Source of the DNA: Thermococcaceae archaeon
GTDB taxonomy: Archaea; Methanobacteriota_B; Thermococci; Thermococcales; Thermococcaceae
Assembly (NCBI GenBank): GCA_030156945.1
Contig: JASGLT010000001.1
Coordinates: forward strand, 62,001-126,000
DNA length: 64,000 nucleotides
Direction: 5' to 3'
In this document: positions 147 through 54,866 of the stretch, one piece after another
How positions within the stretch are numbered: the stretch's first letter is position 1
How the letters are laid out: every line of letters starts with the position of its first letter
Program-made: the position numbers and the translations under genes
The notes under the pieces: generated by a model
The model's input: the letters and a program-made list of their open reading frames with translations, nothing else
Databases searched by the model: none
Told to the model about the DNA's origin: nothing

Positions 147-462
147 AGCGATGATGAGGCCAAGCCCTCCTGAGGGGTGATGAGAGCGATCACCACTGAG
201 CAACCTTTGCTTGCGCAAAGCTTGAGCAAAGGTTTTCGCACTGTTCACTTATTTTGGGGAGATTTGTGCGTGTTTAGTACTATGGGGGGCTGCAATGGGC
301 CTTCTCGAGTGGAACGGCCATCTTCATCGTGGTTCTCTTTTATCCGCCCTTCTGGGGCTTCTGAAAGTAAACACCTCTTGAAAGAATCTGCTAAATGGGG
401 CCACATACCTTGACCAAACTTCGGTATTAGAGTTCTGGGGGTGTGGGGGCGTTAGCCCCCGG

Positions 463-485
463 CAACCTTTGCTCCGCAAAGGTTG
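463..485. repeat. perfect hairpin CAACCTTTGC-TCC-GCAAAGGTTG
   Basis: A 10-bp perfect stem with a 3-nt loop, 2 bp after the GGGGGC/GCCCCC hairpin. The same stem, extended to 11 bp with a 2-nt loop, occurs at 53891-53914, again flanked by a GC-rich hairpin on the same relative side. Sharing of both the stem sequence and its neighbour argues for common descent rather than chance. Confidence 0.75.
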
Positions 486-607
486 ACCAAATTATTCCCT
501 CCTCAAATGAGGTCGAGTTTAGACAAGTTTTTCCTAAACCTACAAGGCTCTTTCTTGAGTGGAGAACACTTGCGAGGTGAGTTTTATGGTGGGCTTACAT
601 CTCTTTT

Positions 608-624
608 GACGCCCATAGGGCGTC
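608..624. repeat. hairpin GACGCCC-ATA-GGGCGTC followed by a T run
   Basis: A 7-bp stem with a 3-nt loop followed directly by TTTTTAATG. The counterpart at 53754-53768, read on the reverse strand, is GCGCCC-ATT-GGGCGC followed by TATTAAAAG. It begins 123 bp from the CAACCTTTGC hairpin in both copies. Hairpin plus T run also resembles an intrinsic terminator, but no gene on the plus strand ends here. Confidence 0.65.
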
Positions 625-801
625 TTTTTAATGTTAAACCTTAACTCTTAGAGCCAGTAAGAGGCGTTCTCACTTGATAACCTTTACTAAGTGAGCAGTG
701 GAAACACCCCAGCAAGAGGAGTAATTCAAAATAGTCAAGACTTTCCGCCAGCGCTTCCATCGGAAGCAAAGCTTCCGGGGTGTTGGGACAAAGTCCCAAC
801 A

Positions 802-817
802 TGCGAAGCAAAGGGCT
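802..817 (+). repeat. 16-bp direct repeat TGCGAAGCAAAGGGCT, copy A
   Basis: Exact 16-mer found again at 33709-33724 inside the mbhI-mbhJ insertion. Both copies are followed by a near-identical GATGG or CATATGG and lie at the edge of a non-coding element, so it may mark a conserved element end. Confidence 0.7.
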
Positions 818-873
818 GATGGTCAGGGGCCGATTAGCTCCTCATCGGGGGCCCTCAGGAACCTACCCTCACA

Positions 874-1347
874 TCATCCCAGCCCAAGCCATTCCCTAAT
901 CTCAAGGGGGATTATCCCGATCTTGGGAAACACGAGGAGAGCCTTGTTCTCCACAGCGTAAGCCGGAACGCAGGGTATCGCACCATAGGGCGTGGGGTAG
1001 CCCGGATCCGGCACCCAGTTGTTATCACCCCAAGTAACGAAGCATTTCTCAGTCTTATTCCCAAGCTTGACCTCCTCTATCCCCCTCACCCTGTGAATTA
1101 TCGGGTACTCGTAACCGGGTCGGGTGTAAACTACAACGTCCCCAACCTTTATCTCATCGATGTTGTTTTCATCAATGCCCTTCAAAAGAACCACGTCGCC
1201 CCTGTAGAAAACCGGCTCCATTGAGCCACTCACAACGATTACAAGGGGTTGATCTGTATGCAGCACAAATTTTAGGCCGTAATGTATCATGAACACGATG
1301 AGCACTGATGCGAGTATTACGTAAGCGTCCTTCTTCCACTCCTCCAT
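874..1347 (-). CDS. signal peptidase I, archaeal S26B type
   Basis: 157 aa. One N-terminal membrane helix (about residues 8-29) is followed by the catalytic box VSGSMEP (serine near 41), the RGDVVLLK strand, and YPIIHRVRG, whose histidine replaces the bacterial lysine as general base in archaeal and ER-type enzymes. A WGDNN box and a hydrophobic C terminus complete the fold. It removes signal peptides from exported proteins at the outer membrane face. Its start lies inside the upstream DUF531 gene (31-bp overlap), suggesting one transcript. A second, SipW-like peptidase is at 19990-20559, so this is probably the general enzyme. Confidence 0.9.
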   Translation of the reverse strand: MEEWKKDAYVILASVLIVFMIHYGLKFVLHTDQPLVIVVSGSMEPVFYRGDVVLLKGIDENNIDEIKVGDVVVYTRPGYEYPIIHRVRGIEEVKLGNKTEKCFVTWGDNNWVPDPGYPTPYGAIPCVPAYAVENKALLVFPKIGIIPLEIREWLGLG

Positions 1348-53536: not shown

Positions 53537-53590
53537 ATGGAACGAAAAAGGCTCAAGATTTACATTCCGGGCACCAAATTCCCCTCGCAG
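53537..53590 (+). pseudogene. truncated duplicate of the lipoyl-synthase-like gene start
   Basis: ATG at 53537 encodes MERKRLKIYIPGTKFPS, parallel to KKLKIYIPGIKFPS at the start of 54027-54866, then the similarity stops abruptly at the edge of the hairpin block. It has its own promoter and GAGGGTGAG ribosome site. The two DNA segments differ at about a quarter of positions, so it is an old paralogue remnant or a drifted duplication, not a recent target duplication. The frame stays open to 54016 but the rest is not protein-like. Confidence 0.6.
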
Positions 53591-53753
53591 GACCGGGGGG
53601 TTTCACCCCCCACGTCCTTGCTAACCCCCTCCCCCCAAGGAAACTTTTCTAGCGAAAAGTTTCATCAAAGTTCCTACGTGCTTATTAGGAATTCCCGTTC
53701 CAAATGGGCTTTAGAGTCCAAGTTGCTTTTCCAGGGGGAGTTTACTTTTAATA

Positions 53754-53768
53754 GCGCCCAATGGGCGC
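53754..53768. repeat. hairpin GCGCCC-AAT-GGGCGC
   Basis: Counterpart of 608-624. On the reverse strand it is preceded by TTTG and followed by TATTAAAAGTAAAC; the plus strand of copy 1 reads TTTG before its hairpin and TTTTTAATGTTAAAC after it. Confidence 0.6.
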
Positions 53769-53890
53769 AAACGAGAAAAAACTCAAAGGGAACTGGTAAA
53801 ATTCTCACCAAAGCCCATCCTATAAAATCCAAATTTGAAAAGCACGTAGAAACTCATGTCCACGATTTTGCACATCTAAACACTTTTGAT

Positions 53891-53914
53891 CAACCTTTGC
53901 TTCAGCAAAGGTTG
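53891..53914. repeat. perfect hairpin CAACCTTTGCT-TC-AGCAAAGGTTG
   Basis: 11-bp stem with 2-nt loop, sharing its 10-bp outer stem exactly with 463-485. A GC hairpin follows 4 bp later, as in copy 1 when read in the other orientation. Confidence 0.75.
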
Positions 53915-54026
53915 TTAGGGGGCTTCGCCCCACATAAACCGGGAAACTGCGTTTCCCAGACCCTTCCTTCTTTTTTGAACGCCGGAGGGGGCTCCGCCCC
54001 CTGCAAACCCTTCTGAGGTGAGCTAA

Positions 54027-54866
54027 ATGGTAGAGACAAGAAAAAAGCTCAAAATCTACATCCCCGGTATCAAGTTCCCTTCAATCTCGCTCACGGGCAA
54101 CGCCTGTGCTCTGAACTGTGCCCACTGCGGGAGGCACTACCTCCAGGGAATGAGGAAGCCGGAGCGCGGGGAGCTTTTGAACTACTGTCTCAAGCTCGCC
54201 GAAGAGGGTTACAGCGGTTGCCTCCTCAGCGGCGGCATGGATGGCCGTCTAAAGGTTCCGCTCGACTTCTACGCCGACGAGATAAGGGAGATTAAGAGGA
54301 GGACTAACCTCAAGCTCAACGCCCACGTGGGTTTTATTGATGAGAGCGACCTGGAGTGGGTGAAGTACGTTGACGCGGTCTCCCTTGACTTCGTGGGCGA
54401 TGATGACGTTATAAGGCGCGTTTACAAGATAGACAAGACCCTGGAGGACTATCTGAGAGTCCTGGACCTACTCACCGAAACCGGCTTGAGGGTTGCTCCC
54501 CACATAACAATCGGCCTCGATTTCGGAAAGATCTGGTGGGAGTATAAAGCCATAGACCTGCTGGTGGAATACCCTATAGACGTAATCGTTCTCGACGTCC
54601 TGATCCCGACGAAGGGGACTGAGATGGAGAACGTACCAAAGCCGAGCGTTGAAGAGAGCCTTGAAGTAGTTAAGTATGCGCGCGAGAAGTTTGACGGCGA
54701 GCTGAGCGTAGGCTGTATGAGACCCCTTGGGAAGTGGAGGCTGGAGTTCGACAGGGGTGCGGTTTTGGCAGGCGTTGATAGGCTTACAAACCCCCCAAGG
54801 AAAATCATCGAATGGGCAAAAAGAGTAAGGGACGTTGAAATAATCTACGAGTGCTGCGTTATGTAG
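54027..54866 (+). CDS. radical SAM protein, probable archaeal lipoyl synthase subunit (LipS1/LipS2 type)
   Basis: 279 aa. Starts MVETRKKLKIYIPGIKFPSI; the 4Fe4S/SAM site is GNACALNCAHCGRHYLQGM (CxxxCxxC). Then GYSGCLLSGGMDGRLKVPLD, the APHITIGLDFGK strand, and a C-terminal SVGCMRPLGKWR and YECCVM whose cysteines could bind the auxiliary cluster of a sulfur-inserting enzyme. From memory and gene order (close to enolase) it matches T. kodakarensis TK2109, one of two proteins making lipoyl groups. GAGGTGAG ribosome site; the upstream 430 bp is a hairpin block. Confidence 0.68.
   Translation: MVETRKKLKIYIPGIKFPSISLTGNACALNCAHCGRHYLQGMRKPERGELLNYCLKLAEEGYSGCLLSGGMDGRLKVPLDFYADEIREIKRRTNLKLNAHVGFIDESDLEWVKYVDAVSLDFVGDDDVIRRVYKIDKTLEDYLRVLDLLTETGLRVAPHITIGLDFGKIWWEYKAIDLLVEYPIDVIVLDVLIPTKGTEMENVPKPSVEESLEVVKYAREKFDGELSVGCMRPLGKWRLEFDRGAVLAGVDRLTNPPRKIIEWAKRVRDVEIIYECCVM

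Follow-up and report, generated by a model that had tools for sequence, protein, structure and literature searches.

The window analysed here, a stretch of 64,000 nucleotides (C46:62001-126000) from a 2.08-Mb genome, contains three copies of a repeated element of about 270 bp (Table 1). Copy 2 is complete and occupies the leader of lipS1, copy 1 has lost the integrity of its right half, which ends near position 720, and a third, decayed copy extends to about position 414. The first-pass annotation had correctly identified the lipS-like gene, which is lipS1. It had overlooked the third copy, the second end hairpin that makes copy 2 complete, and the placement of copy 1 between two convergent C/D-box sRNA genes. 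One of these genes encodes sR36; its trailer hairpin is of a type that also lies directly after many tRNAs. The other, an unnamed apparent C/D-box sRNA, is conserved upstream of lplA in most genomes of the genus, and Rfam gives no match to it at the gathering score.

Table 1. Coordinates of the element copies and neighbouring features in the window.
Feature	Position	Strand	Basis or remark
Copy 2 upstream of lipS1, complete as a fold-back element, in this genome only	53640..53914	-	R1 match 1-272/272, 158.5 bits; empty sites in G009, G021, G011 and others
Left end hairpin of copy 2 (CAACCTTTGC/GCAAAGGTTG)	53891..53914	-	
Central GCGCCC/GGGCGC hairpin of copy 2	53754..53768	-	sequence and folding
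Right end hairpin of copy 2 (GAAACTTTTC/GAAAAGTTTC)	53640..53663	-	
Copy 1, degraded in its right half but with an intact left half and central hairpin	463..720	+	model match 463-659; right boundary approximate
End hairpin of copy 1 (CAACCTTTGC/GCAAAGGTTG)	463..485		
Central hairpin of copy 1 (GACGCCC/GGGCGTC)	608..624	+	
Third, decayed copy, begins 1-2 nt past box D of the C/D-box sRNA	201..414	+	R1 match 201-397, 60 bits; reverse match 205-414
GC-rich hairpin GGGGGC/GCCCCC, second, GC-rich repeat family	445..460	.	abuts the left end of many copies
Trailer hairpin CAGCCCTTTGC..AGCGCTGGCGGAAAG at the sR36 3' end, interrupted by two small hairpins	742..815	-	
C/D-box sRNA (C GATGATGA, D' CTGA, C' TGATGAG, D CTGA); 3' end abuts the array	149..200 (151-199)	+	pattern and conservation upstream of lplA
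C/D-box sRNA sR36; 3' end abuts the opposite side of the array	821..881	-	Rfam RF01124, 64.5 bits
GC-rich hairpin block from copy 2 to lipS1, also present at the empty site	53919..54005	-	
lipS1	54027-54866		NF053742

The element is a nearly palindromic fold-back DNA with precise ends, which are formed by the terminal hairpins themselves. Its left part consists of an end hairpin (CAANCTTTGC../..GCAAAGNTTG), the motif AYCAAA and an arm of about 120 nt; a central GCGCCC/GGGCGC hairpin leads into the complementary arm, the motif TTTGAT and a second end hairpin (GAAACTTTGC../..GCAAAGTTTC), so that the AYCAAA/TTTGAT feet face inward. Compensatory changes on both sides were found in all seven of the arm pairs counted, and standard pairs fill 95.4% of the cells of the whole structure, as against 88.1% for shuffled and 25–50% for slid arrangements. 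Complementarity of the arms is higher within a copy than between copies (p 3e-8, 103 full copies). The fold of copy 2 has a z score of about -6.7 both for DNA and for RNA from either strand (RNA z -6.6 and -6.7). At the gathering score, Rfam has no match in the element copies searched, and only the neighbouring tRNA, sR36 and sR47 genes are recognized.

The hairpins first described in copies 1 and 2 are all borne out at their stated positions, and the CAACC hairpin is not expected by chance, being matched 0 times in 100 shuffles. The spacer between this hairpin and the central one is indeed equal in the two copies, at 122 nt and not the 123 originally given. This equality is a family trait, because the spacer has a median of 119 nt and nearly all values fall between 117 and 123 across 58 copies. 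The spacers of the two blocks align weakly, with 12 of 1000 shuffles scoring equally well.

A model of the element (R1) was built from eight copies and run against 41 genomes of the genus. It matches in 39; the two genomes with no matches (G003 and G019) each have a complete set of 44 tRNAs. The two similar blocks in the window are members of this genus-wide, REPIN-like fold-back element and do not constitute a lipoate element, which bears out the second option of the first-pass annotation, a REP-like repeat that had landed twice. In the genome containing the window (G000), the model gives 68 matches, which come down to about 35–39 separate places grouped in 23 clusters; the nearly palindromic sequence makes most copies match on both strands. 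The named records that carry the same repeat are all from Thermococcus or Thermococcaceae, one being labelled only Thermococci, which places the genome of the window in Thermococcus. Searches of plasmids, phages and IMG/VR gave no matches, and a plasmid or viral origin was rejected accordingly. A literature search, with full text limited to open licences, found no paper describing this repeat. We also observed a second, GC-rich repeat family (CGAAAGACAAGGGGGCTCCGCCCCCTT..GTGGGGCTTCGCCCCAC) that is found immediately 3' of tRNAs and of sR36, interspersed with the fold-back elements. It occurs at L002 (3' of tRNA-Arg), L028, L029 and L030, and in the window at 53919-54005 and 445-460.

The element strongly prefers the 3' ends of tRNA and C/D-box sRNA genes. 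In three genomes (G000, G031 and G034), a copy lies within 300 bp of the tRNA 3' end for 18 of 42, 15 of 44 and 22 of 44 tRNAs, respectively (55/130 in total), compared with 0 of 42, 2 of 44 and 2 of 44 at the 5' end (4/130). Sixteen of the 23 clusters in G000 follow a tRNA, and two more follow the intron-containing tRNA-Trp and tRNA-Ser; together with the lplA cluster, which follows C/D-box sRNAs, 19 of 23 stand behind RNA genes, and two of the remaining four are near contig ends. For most tRNA types the end hairpin typically begins 1–6 nt past the encoded CCA. tRNA-Leu, tRNA-Thr and tRNA-Gly are among the tRNAs followed by a copy, and the C/D-box hosts are sR36, sR47 and the unnamed sRNA of the window. 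Tandem arrays of copies are built between convergent RNA genes. Orientation relative to the host RNA gene is not fixed, and either end of the element can abut it. The element was also seen directly at the 3' end of sR47 at L189:5685-5742 and at L035:1439-1496 (with a gap of 4–5 nt in L035), with tRNA-Arg nearby.

In the window, lplA and lipS1 are each preceded by a copy in the same orientation relative to the gene, and on this arrangement the first-pass annotation had based its main proposal, regulation of lipoate metabolism genes by a cis element or a leader RNA. The gene surveys and the genome-wide distribution contradict this link; copies beside unrelated genes are the outcome that the first-pass annotation itself had set as refuting it. 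Among the 40 of 41 genomes in which lipS1 was found, the upstream regions of the 39 others contain no element, except for a remnant in G028 that is internally deleted and retains both end hairpins, and most copies genome-wide stand behind tRNA genes. Upstream of lplA, elements are present in about 15 of 37 other genomes, with up to four or five in tandem, and the distance from lplA to sigP is 570–1127 bp with elements compared with 19–350 bp without them. At these sites the elements abut the 3' ends of C/D-box sRNAs or tRNAs, and the gene beyond them is not constant: the partner of lplA across the array is tRNA-Gln, tRNA-Pro, tRNA-Gly or tRNA-Ala in other species, not sigP, and it is to these far-side RNA genes that the element belongs. 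The lplA block of the window lies between two convergent sRNA genes, and its place upstream of lplA is therefore incidental. A lipoate regulon is ruled out by the lipS1 and lplA surveys, and a leader RNA or riboswitch by the absence of an Rfam match and by a palindrome that folds on both strands; the lipoate proposal as a whole is almost certainly wrong. As a separate feature, the lipS1 leader carries at 53540-53636 a truncated second copy of the lipS1 start (MERKRLKIYIPGTKFPS) and, after it, a structured GC-rich stretch that hardly varies. This segment occurs at 84–93% identity in about 23 of 39 other genomes and is missing elsewhere, for example in G029, whose promoter is joined directly to lipS1.

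The blocks are probably copies of a non-autonomous, REPIN-like mobile fold-back element that prefers the 3' ends of RNA genes. This interpretation is supported by dispersal to unrelated loci and by a clean empty site at lipS1, where other genomes have CCCCCC-GAACGT-GGGGC and this genome has CCCCCC-AAG-(element)-TTAG-GGGGC. No target site duplication is visible in this comparison, the sole site resolved to the base. An empty site also exists at tRNA-Gln/lplA. Copies in G064 and G031 reach 97.4% identity over 270 bp, their flanks being unrelated on either side, and 24 copy pairs of at least 80% identity have at least 800 bp of unrelated flank on each side. Alignments of near-identical copies end exactly at both hairpins, with the caution that similarity sometimes runs about 40–100 bp into neighbouring GC-rich hairpins. 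The copies would move via a single-stranded or cruciform intermediate, which a candidate enzyme may recognize through the end hairpins, with insertion predicted next to RNA-gene 3' ends; copy 2 would then be an off-target insertion in the lipS1 leader.

Several observations weigh against a mobile element. A recent burst within one genome was not seen, the best same-genome pair being about 81% alike over more than 200 bp, and a search for Y1 transposases revealed no moving enzyme: the Y1 transposase (PF01797) occurs in nine of 41 genomes and is absent from G000 and from 32 of 41 in total. The Thermococcus Y1 loci have no ends of the element type and include no parent transposon, and an IS200/IS605 origin was rejected on account of the rarity of the transposase and the lack of element ends at its loci. 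At tRNA-Gln, the empty site in G036 and G003 contains 89 nt that are replaced by an array of about 930 bp in G021. This is no clean addition, and recombination, which could also produce such a replacement, may therefore be part of the process there. Compensatory change in the arms of long-lived copies likewise also fits a function in the host.

Gene order is frequently broken at the arrays. Adjacency is kept across them in 7 of 41 comparisons, while neighbouring segments inside a single flank keep it in 64 of 85; the associated p value of 6e-10 is optimistic, as the compared pairs share loci and are non-independent. An element-free tRNA control by BLAST included too few loci; by tRNA coordinates, one element-free tRNA block has nearly the same spacing in G000, G003, G019, G031, G034 and G036. 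The order sigP–lipS1–tRNA-Gln is collinear in G000 and G021, with lplA at the opposite end, as would be expected from a rearrangement ending in the array of the window. A single two-break inversion between the lplA and tRNA-Gln arrays was rejected: what follows the tRNA-Gln array on its right shows no match to the sequence that adjoins sR36 on the left in G021, and more than one event is therefore needed. Inversions in Thermococcus end at tRNA pairs of opposite orientation, and the pTN3 integrase has been proposed to cause them (Cossu et al., PMC5495485). The crossover sequenced in vitro lies within the tRNA 3' half and the conserved sequence just after it, and in vitro the integrase failed to recombine tRNA-Leu with tRNA-Thr, two different tRNAs (PMC5495485). 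Near-identical element copies stand behind tRNA-Leu and tRNA-Thr (L143 and L180, 85.5% over 303 bp). Arrays common to different tRNA loci may thus serve as homologous substrates for these inversions, and copy 1 would mark such a junction in the window. A repeat of about 270 bp behind different tRNA and C/D-box sRNA genes would supply shared sequence that those loci otherwise lack, and homology between tRNA loci makes the element a candidate cause of Thermococcus inversions. Elsewhere on C46, two inverted duplicated coding fragments about 87 kb apart, L045:3-206 (C46:60003-60206) and L047:3640-3843 (C46:147139-147342), each adjoin an element array.

The same data can be read in terms of function at the RNA genes themselves. 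A host 3'-flanking element that terminates or processes tRNA and sRNA transcripts, shields RNA 3' ends or takes up supercoils in the wake of strongly transcribed RNA genes would account for the strict 3' polarity, for a first hairpin placed 1–6 nt past CCA or a few nt past box D, and for stable folds on both strands with arms maintained by compensatory change. Supercoil and 3'-end roles of this kind have been proposed for bacterial REP/BIME sequences. Such a function does not readily explain why about half of the tRNAs in the same genome have no element, why G003 and G019 have no matches to it, why an orthologous site can be filled in one species yet empty in the next, why copy number at one site ranges from 0 to 4–5, or why one copy sits in the lipS1 leader. 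We consider it unlikely, yet the arm pairing preserved in old copies keeps it a serious rival. That the element is the template of a family of structured non-coding RNAs, a reading for which the strong RNA folds and the covariation might be cited, is highly improbable: a nearly palindromic sequence folds equally well on either strand, and as DNA too, the copies searched have no Rfam match, and the element is variably oriented to the host RNA gene, with either end abutting it.

Spread by recombination without transposition has to be considered as well. Crossovers in tRNA 3' halves, made by native recombination or a pTN3-type integrase, could carry existing arrays between tRNAs, in line with inversion ends at tRNA pairs and the in vitro crossover (PMC5495485), with synteny broken at arrays and with the replaced 89 nt at tRNA-Gln. 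The copies behind C/D-box sRNAs, the copy after a protein gene (L209) and the lipS1-leader copy, which keeps both original flanks, are left unexplained by such crossovers, and we judge recombination quite improbable as the only means of spread. If the repeat is instead a mobile element, it would represent an archaeal REPIN-like family with an unusual target. A broader proposal is tentative and on balance doubtful: that the repeat is an archaeal mobile element of a new class, with a moving enzyme unrelated to RAYTs, that targets the 3' ends of genes for small structural RNAs and, through the homology it lends to different tRNA loci, provides the main substrate for the frequent chromosome inversions of Thermococcus. 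Genomes G003 and G019 could serve as natural controls. Blocks of this kind should not be taken as regulators of the adjacent protein gene.

REPINs and BIMEs are REP doublets that form hairpins and are mobilized by RAYT transposases (PMC3116915). The Thermococcus element resembles them in its two inverted end hairpins, its spacer with arm-to-arm pairing and compensatory changes, and its extragenic, clustered and non-autonomous character, and its two inverted palindromic units form one larger hairpin. At about 270 bp it is clearly longer than the REPINs of that study, in which 71 bp separate the conserved 16-mers of a GI doublet (PMC3116915); its foot is AYCAAA/TTTGAT and not the GTAG- or CGTC-type tag of REPINs; and it is archaeal and sited at the 3' ends of stable RNAs. 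The architecture is REPIN-like, yet the tag and the absence of a Y1/RAYT gene from this genome, together with the Y1 distribution described above, place the element outside the REPIN/RAYT system. MITEs are likewise short, non-coding and dispersed with inverted-repeat ends. The element differs from these in ends that are hairpins, imperfectly inverted, and not simple terminal inverted repeats; no target site duplication was visible at lipS1, the one site resolved to the base, and no parent transposon was found among the Y1 loci.

PATEs, palindrome-associated elements derived from IS200/IS605, are archaeal, with palindromic ends and no obvious target duplication, features that the element shares. 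They are mentioned for Haloquadratum (PMC3119063). The comparison diverges in that the Y1 loci of Thermococcus are without ends of this kind. The pTN3 integrase inversion system (PMC5495485) operates in the same genus and at the same places, the ends of oppositely oriented tRNA genes; it differs in being an enzyme that acts on tRNA and other repeated sequences (PMC5495485).
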